From an uncultured SAR86 cluster bacterium (GTDB lineage: Bacteria; Pseudomonadota; Gammaproteobacteria; Magnimaribacterales; D2472): a stretch of 35,086 bases of DNA. Within the stretch, counting starts at the first letter, position 1, and the number at the start of each line of letters is the position of its first letter. The stretch covers positions 1-35,086 of the forward strand of contig CACDVW010000013.1 of assembly GCA_902556355.1 (NCBI GenBank), written 5' to 3'. The position numbers and the translations under genes were made by a program. The notes under the pieces were generated by a model. It was not told where the DNA came from. It saw only the letters and a program-made list of their open reading frames with translations, and did not search any database. Below are positions 20,743 through 28,394 of the stretch, in pieces.

Positions 20743-21168
20743 CTATTTAGATACTATTTCTTCTTCGGTGAAAAAATAATTTATTTCCCTTGCAGCACTT
20801 ATTTCAGAATCAGATCCGTGAACTGCATTAGCATCTATGCTATTTGCAAAATCTGCTCTTATTGTTCCGGGATCAGCTTCTTGTGGGTTAGTGCTGCCCA
20901 TAAGTTCTCTATTTTTTTGGATTGCTCCCTCACCTTCAAGCACCTGAACAAAAACTGGACCAGATGTCATGAACTTTTTAAGATCATTGAAAAAAGGTCT
21001 ACCTTCATGTTCAGCATAAAATCCTGATGCCATTTCATCATCGAGCTGTATTAGTTTGCCGGCAACAATATGAAGGCCATTGTCCTCAAATCTGGAGATT
21101 ATTTTGCCAATAATATTCTTTGATACTGCATCTGGTTTAATTATAGATAGTGTGCGCTCTGTTGCCAT
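20743..21168 (-). CDS. ndk: Nucleoside diphosphate kinase
   Basis: A 141-aa enzyme (E. coli 143) that balances nucleoside triphosphates. It begins [18 protein letters not shown], has [26 protein letters not shown] in the middle and the phosphorylated histidine in [16 protein letters not shown] near residue 117. ATG at 21168 is backed by AAGGA 7 bp upstream. A 40-bp gap separates it from iscX, the widest in this run, with a TATAAT hexamer in it; this may be a secondary promoter. Confidence 0.98.
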
Positions 21169-21208
21169 TTTGAATTCCTTATAAAAAATTTTAGGTATTA
21201 TATGAAAG

Positions 21209-21412
21209 TTATTTGGATTCTTCTATCCATAACATCTGAATAGCTTCAAGAATTTTTTCATTTGATTTGTTTGGATCGCCTATAAATCCATCTAGGCTGC
21301 AAATTTTATTATGCAGATCAGGAAAACTTATCCATTGAGGGTCTATTTCTGGAAATTTTTCTGAAAGCTCGATAGCAATATCATTTGTATCCAACCAATC
21401 TATACTATTCAT
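21209..21412 (-). CDS. iscX: IscX, Fe-S assembly modulator
   Basis: A 67-aa acidic protein that closely follows E. coli IscX (66 aa): [20 protein letters not shown] and [17 protein letters not shown] correspond to 'VRFTDMHQWICDLEDF' and '[17 protein letters not shown]'. It binds IscS and iron and modulates cluster assembly. Its ATG shares one base with the fdx stop (TAATG), so the two are coupled. It is the last gene of the isc cluster. Confidence 0.95.
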
Positions 21413-21750
21413 TAGTGATTCTCTGAAACCATATTAATATTGTATTTAGGTATTTCAATTTCAATATCTTCATCTTTTGGTATTGCCTGGCAACTAAGTC
21501 TTGATGTTTGCTCAAGCCCCCATGCTTTATCTAGAAGGTCTTCTTCAATTTCACTTGCTTCATCCAAACTATCAAAGCCTTTACGAACAATACAATGACA
21601 GGTTGTGCATGCTGCAGACATCTCACATGCATGCTCTATTTGTATACCATTTCTTAGAGCCGCCTCACATATAGTTTCATCAGGTTGATTCTCGATCAAA
21701 GCTCCCTCAGGACAAAGGTCTTCATGAGGTAAGATTTTAATTTTAGGCAT
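21412..21750 (-). CDS. fdx: ISC-type [2Fe-2S] ferredoxin
   Basis: A 112-aa adrenodoxin-type ferredoxin (E. coli 111). The [2Fe-2S] ligands appear in HACEMSAACTTCHCIV near residue 40, spaced C-x5-C-x2-C, with the fourth in RLSCQAIP near residue 85. It opens with the family segment PKIKILPHEDLCPEGALI. It supplies electrons to IscS/IscU during cluster assembly. It starts 2 bp after iscA, in the position where hscB and hscA would normally stand. Confidence 0.96.
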   Translation of the reverse strand: MPKIKILPHEDLCPEGALIENQPDETICEAALRNGIQIEHACEMSAACTTCHCIVRKGFDSLDEASEIEEDLLDKAWGLEQTSRLSCQAIPKDEDIEIEIPKYNINMVSENH

Positions 21751-21752
21751 TA

Positions 21753-22094
21753 CTATATGGTAAAGCTTTCACCACAACCACATACTGCTTTAGCATTAGG
21801 ATTTACAAATTTTATTCCTTGGTTAAGGCCATCTTTTTGATAATCAACTAAGCTGCCTTTTAAAAAGTCTAGACTGCTGTTATCAACAAAAATTTTGCAT
21901 CCATTTTTTTCGAAAACAACACCGTCATCATCAAAAGAGTCAACATAATCAAAAAAATATTCATAGCCTGAACATCCTGCTTTTTTAACTCCAATCTTAA
22001 TTCCAACACCTTTACCACGATTTTCAAGGCTTAATAAAAAGTGGTCAATCGCAGAATCTGAAAAGTTTAAATCTGTTGAGCTAAAAACTTGCAT
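21753..22094 (-). CDS. iscA: A-type Fe-S carrier IscA
   Basis: A 113-aa A-type carrier (E. coli 107). The three ligand cysteines are in KKAGCSGYEYFF near residue 40 and in the C-terminal CGCGESFTI. The body is rich in Asp and Phe (YVDSFDDDGVVFEKNG). It receives clusters or iron from IscU and passes them to apoproteins. By sequence it could be called IscA or ErpA; its place after iscU decides for IscA. Confidence 0.95.
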   Translation of the reverse strand: MQVFSSTDLNFSDSAIDHFLLSLENRGKGVGIKIGVKKAGCSGYEYFFDYVDSFDDDGVVFEKNGCKIFVDNSSLDFLKGSLVDYQKDGLNQGIKFVNPNAKAVCGCGESFTI

Positions 22095-22100
22095 GATTAT

Positions 22101-22505
22101 TTATTGTTTTGATTCGTAATCTTCTATTGCTTGCTTTATTGAATCTTCAGCTAACACAGAGCAATGAATTTTTATTGGGGGTAGTTCAAGGGCATCAACA
22201 ATCTCTTTGTTTTTGATAGCTTTTGCTTCTTCTAAGGTTTTACCAATAAGCATATCAACAAGTTCACTTGAAGATGCTATAGCAGAACCACATCCGTAAG
22301 TTTTAAATTTTACATCTTTTATTACATGCGTATTACCAGAGGGCTCACACTTTATTTGCAATTTCATAACATCCCCACAAGCTGGTGCTCCAACCATACC
22401 TGTTCCGACATTTTCTTCTTTTGGGTCAAATCTACCTACATTAAATGCCTTTGGATCATTTAAAGTATTTTCAAATTTGTCTACAACTTTTTTACTATAA
22501 GCCAT
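22101..22505 (-). CDS. iscU: Fe-S cluster scaffold IscU
   Basis: A 134-aa scaffold with the three ligand cysteines in VGAPACGDVMKL near residue 42, KTYGCGSAIASSSE near residue 68 and IHCSVLAEDSI near residue 111. The segment ELPPIKIHC carries the HscA-recognition motif in the form LPPIK (E. coli LPPVK), although no hscA or hscB gene is present beside it. Assembly of [2Fe-2S] and [4Fe-4S] clusters takes place on this protein with IscS. It follows iscS by 15 bp. Confidence 0.97.
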   Translation of the reverse strand: MAYSKKVVDKFENTLNDPKAFNVGRFDPKEENVGTGMVGAPACGDVMKLQIKCEPSGNTHVIKDVKFKTYGCGSAIASSSELVDMLIGKTLEEAKAIKNKEIVDALELPPIKIHCSVLAEDSIKQAIEDYESKQ

Positions 22506-22520
22506 TTCAAGCCTCCATTA

Positions 22521-23741
22521 TTAATGTGTATTCCAGGTTACCGTATCTAAATCAATTCCATCTAGATGCATTTCCCAAAGTGGAGAAAGTTCTCTTAATC
22601 TATCAACCACACTATTTAATATTGATAAAGTTTTATCTACGTCACTTTCTTTTGTAAATCTGCCAAAAGAAAATCTTATTGAGCTGTGAGCTAATTCATC
22701 TTTTCTACCAAGAGCTCTCAAGACATATGAAGGCTCTAGGCTTGCAGAAGTGCAAGCTGAGCCTGAGGATACCGCAATATCTTTAAGACCCATTATTAAT
22801 GATTCTCCCTCAACAAAATTAAAGCTCATATTAAGTATATTTGGGACTTTATTCTTTAAGTCGCCATTGATATAAACATGCTCAATTTTCATAGCTTCGT
22901 CTAAAAATTTTTCATGGTATTTTGCAATCATTTCATGATCTTTTGTCATTTCTAATTTAGCAATTCTAAATGCTTCTCCCATGCCAACAATTTGATGAGG
23001 GGCTAATGTTCCAGACCTCATGCCTCTTTCGTGGCCACCACCATGAATTAATGCTTCGATTCTTACTCTTGGCTTTCTTCTTACAAATAAAGCACCAATG
23101 CCTTTTGGTCCATAAGTTTTATGAGCAGAAAATGACATCAAGTCTACAGGCAGTGTTGAAAGATCAATTTTGACCTTTCCAGTACTTTGAGCAGCATCAA
23201 CATGGAAAAATACACCTGATTCTCTTGTAATTTCTCCAATTGATTGCAAGTCATTTAATGTTCCAAGCTCATTATTGATATGCATTAATGAAACTAATAT
23301 TGTAGATTCTTTTATGGCCTCTTTTACCTGCTCAGGTTGAATAATACCAAATTCATTGGGCTCAAGATAAGTAACTTCAAAACCCTCTCTTTCTAATTGT
23401 CTACATGGATCTAAAACTGCTTTATGTTCTATTTTTGAAGTAATAATATGATTTCCCTTAGATTTATAAAATCTGGCAACACCTTTTACAGCAAGGTTAT
23501 CAGCCTCAGTAGCACCAGATGTCCATACAATTTCTCTTGGATCTGCGTTCACAAGGTTAGCTACATGTGATCTGGCCTCTTCAACAGCATCGTCAGCTTT
23601 CCATCCGTATCTATGAGAACGAGATGCTGGGTTACCAAATTCACCATCAGGTGTAAGATACTCCATCATCTTTGATGCTACACGAGGATCAACAGGAGTA
23701 GTTGATGCATAATCTAAATATATGGTTGATTTTTCAGTCAT
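22521..23741 (-). CDS. iscS: Cysteine desulfurase IscS
   Basis: A 406-aa PLP enzyme (E. coli 404) that takes sulfur from cysteine for Fe-S clusters and tRNA thiolation. It begins [16 protein letters not shown]; the PLP lysine is in [17 protein letters not shown] near residue 208; the persulfide cysteine is in [21 protein letters not shown] near residue 330; and [12 protein letters not shown] near residue 75 is typical of the group. Its ATG follows the iscR stop directly, so regulator and desulfurase are cotranslated. Confidence 0.98.
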
Positions 23742-24176
23742 TTATACAATCTCTCTTATCTTTATATATGGGTCACTGTTAGTTTCTACAAGTGTGTTAA
23801 TTGTTATATTGCTTAAATAATTGTTTACGACGTCATTAAGCTCATGCCATAAGTTATGGGTATTGCATTTTTTTCCATCATTGCACGTGCTCATGCCACT
23901 ACAACTTGTTGCATCTAAGTCTTCTTCAACAGCATTCATGATATCTTTGATTGTAACTAATGCTGGATCCTTGGCATAAAGATAGCCGCCATTGCGACCT
24001 CTCGAACTAGCAACTATTCCGTAAAGCCTAAGCTTTCTGAAAATTTGTTCTAAATATGATATTTCAATATTTTGATTAGCAGATATATCAGATAGTGAAA
24101 CTGGGCCTTCTGAAGCCAAAAGACGAAGTTCAACTAAAGCATTAACAGCGTATTTACTTTTTGTAGTTAATTTCAC
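23742..24176 (-). CDS. iscR: Fe-S cluster-sensing transcription regulator IscR
   Basis: A 144-aa Rrf2-family regulator. The winged helix is at about residues 1-65 ([46 protein letters not shown]). The [2Fe-2S] ligands are C, C, C and H in [19 protein letters not shown], with spacings 6-6-3 identical to Cys92, Cys98, Cys104 and His107 of E. coli IscR. It should sense cluster supply and repress this operon when loaded. The start is GTG at 24176: the product aligns with E. coli 'MRLTSKGRYAV' and no upstream in-frame start exists in the 26-bp gap. There is no ribosome-binding site. A predicted promoter would start the RNA on or within a base or two of this GTG. Confidence 0.96.
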
Positions 24177-24182
24177 GCATGA

Positions 24183-24210
24183 ATTATAAATACCTGACTA
24201 ATTTAGTCAA
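24183..24210 (-). promoter_or_regulatory. Predicted sigma-70 promoter of the isc operon, inside the end of purC
   Basis: On the minus strand TTGACT (24210-24205) and TATAAT (24188-24183) are separated by 16 bp, five of six and six of six matches to the sigma-70 boxes. The -35 box uses the last codons of purC (GTT GAC TAA). Counting 6-8 bases after the -10 box places transcription start at about 24175-24177, on the GTG start codon of iscR. The promoter is seen in sequence; its activity is inferred. Confidence 0.75.
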
Positions 24211-24214
24211 CTAT
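24190..24214 (-). promoter_or_regulatory. IscR type-1 operator overlapping the isc promoter and the purC stop codon
   Basis: The 25-bp site reads, on the minus strand, ATAGTTGACT, then AAAT, then TAGTCAGGTAT. This fits the E. coli type-1 IscR consensus (ATASYYGACT, RWWW, YAGTCRRSTAT) at every position, and the reverse complement fits as well, as expected for a dimer site. It covers the -35 box and most of the spacer of the predicted promoter, so bound [2Fe-2S]-IscR should block RNA polymerase. It spans the purC stop codon. The consensus is quoted from memory of the E. coli work. Confidence 0.85.
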
Positions 24215-24925
24215 TATATTCATACCAAGTCTATCGGCGACCTGATGGTATGATTCAACAACATCACCGAGACCTTGTCTAAACCTATCTTTATCCATCT
24301 TCTTTAAAGTTTCAGAATCCCATAACCTACATCCATCTGGAGTAAACTCATCAGCCAATAAAATCTTGCCTTGACTGCAAACACCAAATTCAACTTTAAA
24401 ATCTACTAATATTAAATTAGAGTTGATAAATAGCTCTTTTAAGACAGTATTTACTTTATAAGTGAGCTCTTTCATCTTCTCAATTTGGTCTTTACTAGCC
24501 CAACCAAAAGAAATAATGTGCTCGTCATTTATTAATGGATCGCCCAAATCATCATCTTTTAAAAAAAATTCAAATAAAGGATTTTCTAGTATAAGCCCAT
24601 CCTCAGTGCCTAATCTTCTACATATTGATCCAGACGCTCTATTTCTAATAACGCATTCAATTGGAAACATATCTAATTTATAAACAAGAGAGTCATTACT
24701 GTTAAGAACTTCAATGTGATGAGTCTCGACACCATTTTTTTCAAGATGGTCCATAATAAATGCATTAAATTGGTTATTAACAGCACCTTTACCTAGTAAA
24801 GCTTCTTTCTTTTTGCCATCAAAAGCAGAAGTATCGTCACTAAAGTGCATCACCAGTTGATCATTGTCAGATGTAGTAAATAATGACTTTGCTTTTCCTT
24901 TAGTTATTTCTTTAATTTTTTCCAT
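24203..24925 (-). CDS. purC: SAICAR synthetase (phosphoribosylaminoimidazole-succinocarboxamide synthase)
   Basis: A 240-aa enzyme (E. coli 237) that joins CAIR and aspartate with ATP in purine synthesis. It begins KIKEITKGKAKSLFTTSDND; other family segments are FSDDTSAFDGKKKE near residue 29, ECVIRNRASGSICRRLG near 90, LVDFKVEFG near 175 and LADEFTPDGCRLWD near 192. The order dapA-bamC-purC is as in E. coli. It lies 8 bp after bamC. Its last codons double as the -35 box and operator of the isc operon. Confidence 0.98.
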   Translation of the reverse strand: MEKIKEITKGKAKSLFTTSDNDQLVMHFSDDTSAFDGKKKEALLGKGAVNNQFNAFIMDHLEKNGVETHHIEVLNSNDSLVYKLDMFPIECVIRNRASGSICRRLGTEDGLILENPLFEFFLKDDDLGDPLINDEHIISFGWASKDQIEKMKELTYKVNTVLKELFINSNLILVDFKVEFGVCSQGKILLADEFTPDGCRLWDSETLKKMDKDRFRQGLGDVVESYHQVADRLGMNIIVD

Positions 24926-24933
24926 AATTAGCC

Positions 24934-25911
24934 TTAACTTAGAGATTCATTAATTTTTGAGATTAGCTTTTCAGCTTCTTCAATTTTACCATCTTTTGAA
25001 TATGCTCTTACATATGTTTTATTATTTTTTACTGTAATTTTTACCTCAAATTGAGCACCATCAAAATTAACTTTTTGATTTTTATCATTTCTTCCAAAAT
25101 TTAAAAATGAGAAAAAGCTACCTTCTTCTTCTTCAGCGTAACTAACATAAAAAATACCATTACTTCTATCCTTGTCATTAGCAAGAATTTCAGACGCATT
25201 CATAGCTTTTGTGACCGAAGACCATGCCCTGTCAAAATTTAAATCAAGCTCTATGACGGTTTGGCCATTCTCAACAAAAATCTTTGCTTTCTTTATATCA
25301 TTTAAGTTTTGAGCAGCTAGAGATGTTCCAGAAAACTGATCAACAGACTCAGCAAAATAATTTACTAAATTACTAAGCTCAGACTGGATAAGCTCAGGAT
25401 TACTTATAATTTCATTAGAATTTTTATCTAACTGAGCTAAGAAGATTTCTGTTGAAGCTTCTTTTATACCATGCTCAATTTTCATTTTTAATATTGAGGT
25501 TTCATCAAAATTTATATCAATTTCACCAGTTAAAGGGTCGGCATTTAGCGTTTCAAACAATGATGTATTCCAATAGCTTTTTGTTATAGGCCATGATGTA
25601 GATGGTAAAGTCTCAACATATATCCACATCAACTCACCTAAACGCCTTAATTGAACAGAGCTATTTCCAGAGGATGCAAAGATTTGTCTAGGCTTAGGAA
25701 CCTCTTGATCATCAGATAATTCATTTACAACATTAACTGGATAATGATTTTCAATAACAATTACATTTAAGTCATCTGGTAACTGCATATCCTCTTCAAC
25801 TTTTTCTTTCAGAAATGCATTTTTTGTTGGTGGGAACATTCCTTCTGGTCCAGATATATATGAGCATGAAGATGTTAAGATTAATATATTGATTATAAAA
25901 AAATTTTTCAT
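24934..25911 (-). CDS. bamC: Outer-membrane assembly lipoprotein BamC
   Basis: A 325-aa lipoprotein (E. coli 344). The short signal FFIINILILTSSCSY has the lipobox TSSC, giving lipidation at Cys near residue 16. The unstructured N-terminal part (VEEDMQLPDDLNVI) would run along BamD; two helix-grip domains follow, at about residues 90-215 and 220-325 (LGELMWIYVETLPSTSWPITKSYW, ELDLNFDRAWSSVTKAM). Recognition rests on lipobox, length, these segments and the conserved place between dapA and purC. Its ATG follows the dapA stop directly. Confidence 0.9.
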   Translation of the reverse strand: MKNFFIINILILTSSCSYISGPEGMFPPTKNAFLKEKVEEDMQLPDDLNVIVIENHYPVNVVNELSDDQEVPKPRQIFASSGNSSVQLRRLGELMWIYVETLPSTSWPITKSYWNTSLFETLNADPLTGEIDINFDETSILKMKIEHGIKEASTEIFLAQLDKNSNEIISNPELIQSELSNLVNYFAESVDQFSGTSLAAQNLNDIKKAKIFVENGQTVIELDLNFDRAWSSVTKAMNASEILANDKDRSNGIFYVSYAEEEEGSFFSFLNFGRNDKNQKVNFDGAQFEVKITVKNNKTYVRAYSKDGKIEEAEKLISKINESLS

Positions 25912-26799
25912 TTAAATTAATTTAAGTTTATTTAGTTCTGACAAAATTTCATCATGATAAGTTTCATCTAATTCTATTAAAGGAAGTCTAATTGAATTTT
26001 CAATCATTCCTATTTTAGTTAACATCCATTTTACTGGTATTGGATTTGATTCAACAAATAATAATCTATATATATTGTTGTTAACTTCATTCAATTTCTT
26101 TGCCTCTGCAATATTATCATCTCTTATATGTTTGCATATTTGTGAAATTGATTTTGGTATAACATTAGCTGCCACAGATATAACTCCGTGAGCTCCTTCT
26201 ATCAAAGAATCCATGAAGGTAGGATCATCACCAGAAAAAATAGCAAAATCGGAGGAATTGTTAGAAATTTTAACTAGTTCTTTTATTCTTTCAACATCAT
26301 CAACAGCTTCTTTTAGACCAACAATATTTTTATGTTCAGAAAGAATGCTAACAGTTTCAGGTTTTAAATCACAAGCTGTTCTTGAAGGCACATTATATAA
26401 AATTTGTTTAATATCTACGTTATTAGCAATTTTTTCATAATGTGCTAGTAATCCTTTTTGATTAGGCTTGTTATAGTATGGAGTAACTAGTAGAACATAA
26501 TCTGCACCTTTTAATTTTGCTTCAAGAGATAGTTCTACTGCTTCGTCTGTTGAGTTTGCGCCTGTTCCCGCAATAACGGGTATTCTGTTATGAATATATT
26601 TTACTGTATAGTCAATTACTTCAATATGTTCTTTTACGTTTAAAGTAGCTGATTCGCCTGTAGTTCCAACAGAAACTATTCCATTGGTTTCATTGTCTAT
26701 ATGCCAGTCTAAAAGATTACTGAGAGATTCATAATCAACATCACCATTCTTTAAAAGAGGTGTTACTAGAGCAACTAAACTGCCTTGTAAAACTTGCAT
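25912..26799 (-). CDS. dapA: 4-hydroxy-tetrahydrodipicolinate synthase
   Basis: A 295-aa TIM-barrel aldolase (E. coli 292) that condenses pyruvate with aspartate semialdehyde, the entry to lysine and diaminopimelate synthesis. GSLVALVTPLLKNGDVDYESL opens the protein in family style; VGTTGESATLN near residue 43, the catalytic tyrosine in ILYNVPSRTACDL near residue 134 and the Schiff-base lysine in IVGLKEAVDD near residue 162 are all present. It heads the long minus-strand run towards der; the 68-bp divergent spacer to bcp should hold its promoter. I see no lysine riboswitch in that short space. Confidence 0.98.
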   Translation of the reverse strand: MQVLQGSLVALVTPLLKNGDVDYESLSNLLDWHIDNETNGIVSVGTTGESATLNVKEHIEVIDYTVKYIHNRIPVIAGTGANSTDEAVELSLEAKLKGADYVLLVTPYYNKPNQKGLLAHYEKIANNVDIKQILYNVPSRTACDLKPETVSILSEHKNIVGLKEAVDDVERIKELVKISNNSSDFAIFSGDDPTFMDSLIEGAHGVISVAANVIPKSISQICKHIRDDNIAEAKKLNEVNNNIYRLLFVESNPIPVKWMLTKIGMIENSIRLPLIELDETYHDEILSELNKLKLI

Positions 26800-26867
26800 T
26801 GATAAAATTTTCAGTAAAAAATAGGACTATACACTATTTTATTAAAAATACTTATAAGGTAACAAAT
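26800..26867. promoter_or_regulatory. Divergent promoter region between dapA and bcp
   Basis: This 68-bp AT-rich spacer must serve both dapA (minus) and bcp (plus). On the minus strand TATAGT is a possible -10 box for dapA, but no good -35 stands at the right distance. On the plus strand the bcp ribosome site AAGG precedes its ATG by 8 bases. No hairpin or riboswitch is visible. Confidence 0.35.
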
Positions 26868-27338
26868 ATGGCTAAAAATTTAGAAGGTAAAAAATGTCCT
26901 AAGTTTAGTGCAGAATGCACGAGCGGGTTAAGTCTTTCCAATAAGGATTTTGAGGGAAAGAATTTTGTTATTTATTTTTATCCAAAAGATAGCACTCCTG
27001 GGTGTACTACTGAAGGTCAAGAGTTTAGGGATAACTATAAATCTTTTAAAAAACTTAATACTGAAATTCTTGGTGTATCTAGAGATTCAATCAAGAGCCA
27101 TGAGAATTTTAAGTCAAAACAATCTTTCCCATTTGAACTATTATCAGATCCTGATGAACAAGTTTGCAATGCTTTTGATGTAATGAAATTAAAATCTATG
27201 TATGGAAGAGAGTATATAGGAGTTGATAGGTGTACCTTCTTAATAGATGTAAATGGGAAAGTTTTAAAGGAATGGCGATCAGTAAAAGTTAAAGGTCATG
27301 TTGAGGAAGTGTTAAATACTGTTAAAGATTTAACTTAA
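26868..27338 (+). CDS. bcp: Thiol peroxidase of the Bcp/PrxQ type
   Basis: The real start is the ATG at 26868 (MAKNLEGKKCPKFSAE, 156 aa), preceded by AAGG; the ORF track's 192-aa version adds 36 residues of non-coding spacer. Bcp reduces hydrogen and organic peroxides with thioredoxin. The peroxidatic cysteine is in YPKDSTPGCTTEGQEFRD near residue 46. In E. coli Bcp a resolving cysteine lies five residues on; here that position is Gln51, so the enzyme may act with one cysteine or use another, such as that in EQVCNAFDV. The neighbourhood beside dapA is as in E. coli, though gcvR is absent. The last 9 bases overlap the convergent perM-like gene. Confidence 0.95.
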   Translation: MAKNLEGKKCPKFSAECTSGLSLSNKDFEGKNFVIYFYPKDSTPGCTTEGQEFRDNYKSFKKLNTEILGVSRDSIKSHENFKSKQSFPFELLSDPDEQVCNAFDVMKLKSMYGREYIGVDRCTFLIDVNGKVLKEWRSVKVKGHVEEVLNTVKDLT

Positions 27339-28394
27339 ATCGCTATTTGACGATGATGGCCATGCATTCCATACCGCTTTTATAAAAGTTGCAATTGGTA
27401 TTGAAAAGAATACTCCCCAAAAACCAAACATGCTTCCAAAAATAAATACTGCCAGTATTATTACCACAGGATGTAATTTTACTGTTTCTGAAAAAATTAT
27501 AGGTACAAGTAAGTTACCGTCTAGGGCTTGTAAAAGAAGATATAAGCCTATTAACAAATAGAATTCTGTTCCTAAGCCAAACTGAAGCAAACCTACTACA
27601 ACAATAGGAATGGTTACCAAAAAAGCTCCAACATAAGGAATAATTACTGATAAACCAACTAATACAGACAATAAAGCTGAATACTTTAAACCCAGAGAAG
27701 CAAATATAATTGCTGCAGCAATTCCAACAATAAATATTTCAATTGTCTTGCCTCTTACATAGTTACTTAACTGAATATCCATTTCAGCCCATATATTAGT
27801 CAGCATTTCTCTCTTTCCTGGGATAATCTTTATAAAACCCTCAATAATATTTTTTCTATCAAATAAAAAGAAGTACACAAGTATTGGGAACAAAATAATA
27901 TATAACAGAAATGTTATTGCACTTTGTATGCCTGAAATAGATGACTTAATAATATTTTGAGCTATTTCACTGACCTCCTCTGATACCGCCTGGAAAAAGA
28001 TAGATATCTGTTCAGAAGAAACTAAATCAGGGAACTTGGTAGGCAATCCAGATATAAAATCAAGAAAATTATTTATAAGATTTGGAACATCAAGAATAAA
28101 AGCTTGAAGCTGAATATATAAAAGAGGTACCAACCATATCAATAGAGCTGCGCCTGTAATTATGAAAACTGAAAAAGTAATAATCAATGCAACATTTGCA
28201 CTGACATCATAAGACTGAATTTTTTTTTGCATGCCAACTAGCAGATAAGCAACAACTATGCTTATCATAAAAGGCGTTAAAATTGATCCGAAGAATGATA
28301 TGACTAGAAAAAATAATAAAATTGCTAACGAGAAGATTATTGTCTCCTCATTGCTAAATATATTTTTTAATACTTTATTTACTTGTTCAAACAT
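27330..28394 (-). CDS. perM: PerM/AI-2E family inner-membrane permease
   Basis: A 354-aa membrane protein (E. coli PerM 353) of the AI-2E exporter family. It has paired N-terminal segments (IIFSLAILLFFLVISFFG, LTPFMISIVVAYLLVG), one near residue 70, then an amphipathic region (residues 90-150), then several segments including LLYIILFPILVYFFLFDRKN and LSVIIPYVGAFLVTIPIVVVG. The C-terminal GSMFGFWGVFFSIPIATFIKAVWNAWP is typical. The transported substrate is unknown in this family. It is divergent from bepA, as in E. coli, and convergent with bcp. Confidence 0.88.
   Translation of the reverse strand: MFEQVNKVLKNIFSNEETIIFSLAILLFFLVISFFGSILTPFMISIVVAYLLVGMQKKIQSYDVSANVALIITFSVFIITGAALLIWLVPLLYIQLQAFILDVPNLINNFLDFISGLPTKFPDLVSSEQISIFFQAVSEEVSEIAQNIIKSSISGIQSAITFLLYIILFPILVYFFLFDRKNIIEGFIKIIPGKREMLTNIWAEMDIQLSNYVRGKTIEIFIVGIAAAIIFASLGLKYSALLSVLVGLSVIIPYVGAFLVTIPIVVVGLLQFGLGTEFYLLIGLYLLLQALDGNLLVPIIFSETVKLHPVVIILAVFIFGSMFGFWGVFFSIPIATFIKAVWNAWPSSSNSDLS

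Follow-up and report, generated by a model that had tools for sequence, protein, structure and literature searches.

Introduction

In E. coli, type-1 sites specifically bind [2Fe-2S]-IscR and respond to its oxidation (PMC12594620). Two such sites, ATACCCGACTAAATCAGTCAAGTAA and ATAGTTGACCAATTTACTCGGGAAT, are found upstream of iscR, both well upstream of the start; the message has a leader with a ribosome-binding site, and hscBA is part of the operon. In P. aeruginosa, two type-1 sites at iscR share bases with the motif recognized by RNA polymerase, and repression of isc has been proposed for them; a ribosome-binding site is marked, and the available text of that report describes no overlap with an upstream stop codon (PMC3899308). 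Leaderless genes form a separate group, characterized by a TANNNT box ~12 bp before the start codon and described in Actinobacteria, Deinococcus-Thermus and some Xanthomonadales and Legionellales; in a survey, they occurred in only 15 of 239 gammaproteobacterial genomes, at a mean of 4.5% and mostly in these last two orders (PMC3160421, PMC12340547).

Here, we describe the purC-iscR junction of a SAR86 gammaproteobacterium. SAR86 are among the most abundant surface-ocean bacteria, and to our knowledge little is known of their gene regulation; a literature search for ‘leaderless’ together with ‘SAR86’ found no paper. The junction resembles E. coli in having a type-1 site upstream of iscR and P. 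aeruginosa in the overlap of this site with the polymerase recognition sites. In contrast to E. coli, there is one site, which contains the -35 box, a leader is predicted to be absent, and neither HscA nor SufBD was found in the genomes tested. With the described leaderless genes, it shares a -10 box right before the start codon and the lack of a Shine-Dalgarno sequence. Autorepression of isc by holo-IscR is already known, and its regulatory logic is textbook; what appears to be new is a predicted leaderless iscR, mostly with a GTG start, an operator shared with a stop codon and a genome-wide leaderless signal in SAR86.

Architecture of the purC-iscR junction

The window is the whole stretch of 35,086 nucleotides that was analysed. 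Its genes at this locus, identified via NCBIfam, and the elements of the junction are as follows:

24203..24925, minus strand: purC, phosphoribosylaminoimidazolesuccinocarboxamide synthase (TIGR00081, 244.7 bits, over the cut-off of 189.9)
23742..24176, minus strand: iscR, GTG start, 144 aa, without ribosome-binding site (top NCBIfam match TIGR02010)
22521..23741, minus strand: iscS (TIGR02006, 687 bits)
22101..22505, minus strand: iscU (best match TIGR01999)
21753..22094, minus strand: iscA (best match TIGR02011)
21412..21750, minus strand: fdx, ISC-type 2Fe-2S ferredoxin (TIGR02007, 179 bits, over the cut-off)
24190..24214, strand (.): predicted type-1 IscR operator, the 25-mer ATAGTTGACTAAATTAGTCAGGTAT read on the minus strand, with 0 mismatches to the E. 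coli type-1 consensus
24205..24210, minus strand: -35 hexamer TTGACT, inside the operator left half and inside purC
24203..24205, minus strand: purC stop codon TAA, made of operator bases
24183..24188, minus strand: -10 hexamer TATAAT, 16-nt spacer from the -35 hexamer, 6 nt before the iscR start codon
24176, minus strand: predicted transcription start, the first base of GTG, placed by the -10 distance of 6-7 nt and a genome-wide peak at the same distance

The minus-strand sequence of the junction is ATG AAT ATA ATA GTT GAC TAA, the end of purC, followed by ATTAGTCAGGTATT TATAAT TCATGC GTG, the start of iscR. The left half of the operator carries the last purC codons and the stop, the gap from the purC stop to the iscR start is 26 bp, and six bases (24182-24177) separate the -10 box from the GTG (24176-24174). 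TTGACT-16-TATAAT is the top promoter-like match in 21000-27500, agreeing at 11 of 12 positions, and no terminator-like site was found between purC and iscR. The preliminary description had placed a 25-bp type-1 site across the purC stop, overlapped by this promoter with a -10 box ending 6 nt before GTG, had let the last purC codons double as -35 box and operator half, and had noted the 26-bp gap and the lack of an iscR ribosome-binding site. This anatomy is right, every element being where it was placed, on the minus strand, and the meaning given to it is mostly right; scans of intergenic DNA only, which it expected to miss the site, would miss half of the operator.

The consensus used for comparison, the 25-bp palindrome ATASYYGACTRWWWYAGTCRRSTAT, is the published E. 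coli one, checked as printed in PMC3899308, and the SAR86 site matches it at 25 of 25 positions. Base composition predicts 5e-7 perfect sites for the window and 1.5e-5 for the genome. Shuffling the window never yielded a site with three or fewer mismatches, and the 1.07-Mb, 75%-complete assembly of the same organism holds no second one; the reversed consensus pattern, as a control, also occurs there in one place, so that the background at three mismatches is about one per genome, the operator match itself being perfect.

To follow the junction in relatives, iscR loci with their upstream DNA were taken from 88 SAR86 genomes; they include 71 loci of the window's own family (f1), 16 of a sister family (f2) and one of a further family (f4); these loci are related and not independent, which a tree-based count and the comparison of two families meet only in part. 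iscR heads the isc operon, with iscS, iscU, iscA and fdx downstream. Its product has an Rrf2 domain (PF02082, 117.8 bits, over the cut-off) and scores 157.3 bits against a curated TIGR02010 cut-off of 207.55 bits, which is an annotation threshold and not a biochemical trait. The four cluster ligands, C92, C98, C104 and H107, are present in every complete IscR of both families, and E43 and R59 are likewise conserved; in E. coli, E43 is the residue behind the preference for [2Fe-2S]-IscR over apo-IscR (PMC3899308). Since residues 1-4 (M-K-L-T here, M-K/R/N-L/F-T in relatives) align with residues 1-4 of E. coli IscR, the GTG is very probably the true start. No Shine-Dalgarno-like sequence was found upstream of iscR; such sequences precede iscU (GGAGG), iscS (AGAGAG) and ndk (AAGGA).

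Conservation of the operator and switching of the purC stop

In the window's family, operator and promoter are kept in all 71 loci with the spacer fixed at 16 nt, and the overlap of the operator with the -35 box and spacer of the iscR promoter in each of them fits a control of iscR/isc transcription. Mismatches to the E. coli consensus number 0-3 in this family and 3-5 in the sister family, and the -10 box is TATAAT, GATAAT, CATAAT or TATACT throughout the 71 loci. purC lies upstream of iscR in 70 of these; the remaining contig begins too close. The 26-bp gap is shared by 43 relatives. Their -35 box is invariant save for TTGATT in two, and the right half of the palindrome, located in the promoter spacer, is nearly invariant, with A, T, C, G, T, A and T at -23, -21, -20 and -17 to -14. 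GAC closes purC in 41 of the 43, compared with a GAC share of 20% among the Asp codons of these purC genes, and the information content at third positions of the final codons is 1.7-2.0 bits, compared with a mean of 0.69 for purC third positions; elsewhere in purC, only one of 96 third positions exceeds 1.8 bits.

The purC stop is found inside the operator in either of two frames, as GAC TAA or as TGA. In the 43 loci with the 26-bp gap, purC ends in GAC TAA, the protein terminating mostly in IIVD or IKLD; in most other loci of the family, purC ends in the TGA within TTGACT (NIET or a similar ending, in 21 loci by the main count), at the same operator. Outside the family, PurC ends a few residues earlier, in LGVI, LGIN or LGISL. 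On a PurC plus IscR tree, the stop frame has switched at least three times with the operator intact throughout; therefore, the DNA seems to be what is selected, and PurC would take whichever ending the operator offers. Relatives that keep the purC protein end and lose the palindrome had been named beforehand as a refuting result; the comparison shows the reverse, in that end and frame of purC vary and the palindrome stays. The constraint on the end of purC lies in the DNA and not, as had been supposed, in the protein sequence IIVD, PurC ending in IIVD, IKLD or NIET. Selection on the C-terminus IIVD itself was dropped as an explanation because the frame of purC switches across relatives.

The sister family provides a second arrangement: purC is located ~5 kb upstream of iscR on the same strand, three oxidoreductase genes form an operon of opposite orientation in between, and operator and promoter of iscR persist with nearly the same spacing. 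By a reading of the open reading frames, as distinct from a family search, the products of this operon resemble ferredoxin-dependent 2-oxoacid oxidoreductases. Its middle gene, used as a marker, is present in four of four genomes of the sister family and absent from the 11 genomes of the window's family and the one f4 genome tested.

Several minor variations were seen at these loci. In many sister-family genomes (L075-L087), the divergent region that precedes the iscR operator contains all or part of a recurring palindrome, GGTACATGTACC, possibly the site of another regulator. The right half-site AGTC is changed to ACTC in 13 genomes of the window's family (L053, L055-L058, L060, L062-L064, L066, L067, L070, L071), as in the second E. 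coli iscR site, with E43 and R59 unchanged. A purC match in one genome (L249, G106) was reported with one in-frame TGA, which may be a natural stop in the matched stretch, an assembly error or a sign of a pseudogene.

Leaderless geometry at iscR and across the genome

The -10 box is separated from the iscR start by 6 nt in 60 and by 7 nt in 5 of the 71 loci of the window's family (65 together), and by 7 nt in 11 of the 16 sister-family loci, where the spacing is 9-10 nt in three others and 26 nt in one. Conservation is stronger for the distance than for the sequence it spans, since the bases between the -10 box and the start vary (TCATGC, CTCCCC, CGGCAC, ACCTGC, ACACTC). A -10 box at 6-7 nt and the missing Shine-Dalgarno sequence are the sequence features by which a leaderless gene is recognized, and iscR has both. 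In E. coli, leaderless messages that start with GTG are poor templates for translation, so that the GTG in 46 of the 65 loci with 6-7-nt spacing is unexpected. The only longer spacing in the family belongs to genus g6 (6 of 71 loci), with 40-44 nt from the -10 box to the start, which is ATG in all; the tree needs one change for it. Leaderlessness is not indispensable, because this genus has the longer spacing. In its 40-44-nt leader (L042, L044-L047, L051), a hairpin can form close to the predicted 5' end, with nine pairs, -12.6 kcal/mol and z -2.5 in one member and a weaker fold, z -1.3, in another.

The same geometry was looked for genome-wide in 1.2 Mb of a single-contig, nearly complete relative (G018), in ~0.43 Mb of the organism's own genome (G000) and in 200 kb of E. 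coli, with simple calling of open reading frames, gene starts set by open-reading-frame rules and genes at least 20 nt from the previous gene. In the relative, -10-like boxes peak at 6 nt before the start, 34 compared with a background of 10.2 per position (Poisson P 4e-9), and counts at 8-9 nt (18 and 17) are also above this background. The sample of the own genome has 13 boxes at 6 nt compared with a background of 3.1; no -10 peak at 6-nt spacing was seen in the 200 kb of E. coli. In the two SAR86 sets, 20-27% of genes have a Shine-Dalgarno-like motif in front, compared with 37-54% in the E. coli sample and 7-10% in control stretches. As the E. coli control differs in base composition, the argument rests on the peak within SAR86. 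The leaderless geometry proposed beforehand for iscR, with its predicted start site, is supported by its recurrence in 65 of 71 loci and most of the sister family and by its place in this genome-wide pattern.

The geometry is not unique to iscR in SAR86. An unrelated gene, greA, has a -10 box at 5-7 nt before its ATG in 30 of 30 SAR86 genomes (L255-L284; contig C8 17776 in the own genome). This box is TATAAT, mostly with an upstream TG (extended -10), and directly follows a conserved CAAGAAAT stretch, which may be the end of the gene upstream; greA is a candidate for a second conserved leaderless promoter. We regard it as quite probable that leaderless transcription is an established mode in SAR86, used by a substantial minority of transcription units, of which some are set tightly behind the preceding gene, and that iscR belongs among them as a leaderless, mostly GTG-start gene with a single operator serving as promoter, repressor site and purC stop in two frames.

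A model for control of the isc operon

We propose, with a probability of roughly 85%, that the SAR86 isc operon (iscR-iscS-iscU-iscA-fdx) is autoregulated from this element, a leaderless promoter that is repressed by holo-IscR and whose operator supplies the stop codon of purC. The model builds on what can be read from the DNA, namely operator, promoter, spacing, the missing ribosome-binding site, conservation and the IscR ligands, and would operate in the following manner: RNA polymerase with the housekeeping sigma factor would use TTGACT-16-TATAAT and begin transcription on the iscR start codon or one base away. The resulting mRNA would be leaderless, and its first codon would be translated with no help from a Shine-Dalgarno sequence. 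With ample clusters, [2Fe-2S]-IscR presumably occupies the type-1 operator, covers the -35 box and spacer and blocks the polymerase, as proposed for P. aeruginosa; when clusters are scarce or oxidised, IscR may be released and the isc operon expressed. purC, whose end contains the left operator half, would take its stop from there in whichever of the two frames it arrives.

Operator and promoter could also be real with a very short leader of 1-5 nt, or with several starts, so that iscR would be near-leaderless and not strictly leaderless. The sister-family loci with 9-10 nt and 26 nt and the genome-wide excess at 8-9 nt in G018 are in line with this; however, at the usual distance from -10 to +1, the spacing of 6-7 nt in 65 of 71 loci puts +1 on the start codon, and we consider a short leader rather unlikely. 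Less probable still is that iscR is expressed mainly by read-through from purC, the internal promoter being minor and bound IscR serving chiefly as a roadblock where purC ends. The short gap, the common strand and the missing terminator-like structure would permit such a long transcript, but it would offer iscR no Shine-Dalgarno sequence, and the sister family keeps operator and promoter even though its purC lies ~5 kb off behind an oppositely oriented operon.

It seems hardly credible that a strong sigma-70 promoter and a conserved purC end give rise to the palindrome as a side effect and that IscR does not bind it. Half of the site does double as -35 box and coding sequence; yet the right half is conserved within the spacer, a stretch in which the promoter requires no box, the purC frame changes and the DNA does not, the site persists where purC is not adjacent, and all 25 positions match an operator that was defined independently. 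The locus offers a well-conserved, testable regulator-operator pair for Fe-S homeostasis in an iron-poor habitat, and its host apparently depends on the ISC system only. The locus further suggests that leaderless transcription is routine in SAR86, which would change the annotation of gene starts and promoters.

Regulon and Fe-S systems

For a scan of type-1 sites, a weight matrix was built from 69 cleanly parsed sites, and the idea of the iscR operator as one of many type-1 sites was dropped on the outcome. The highest score in G018, 32.8, belongs to the iscR site; the runner-up has 14.2, less than the weakest family member at 18.0. The sample of the own genome contains no other type-1 site scoring above 7, and other matches to relaxed type-1 patterns in 107 genomes occur at about the rate of the reversed control. 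Further members of a type-1 regulon, which the preliminary description had envisaged, did not emerge, the nearly complete G018 holding no other strong site.

In seven SAR86 genomes (G000, G018, G021, G023, G025, G091, G097), no match exceeded the HscA cut-off and no SufBD was found; the top HscA-profile matches, at ~606 bits, are probably DnaK. Judged from their gene content, these genomes seem to run the ISC system without HscA. The single strong site in G018, together with the lack of SufBD and HscA in the tested genomes of both families, suggests, on the evidence of the type-1 scan, that adjusting the expression of its own ISC operon is the main or sole task of IscR.

A different setting is seen in the f4 relative (L088, G141), where an IscR-like protein with C98 replaced by Ser is encoded beside SufBD genes. 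An operator-like TTGACAAAACTAGTCAAGAATTATAAA is present, with a leader of >50 nt that contains a GAGAG motif, and the neighbourhood under this similar operator is suf rather than isc.
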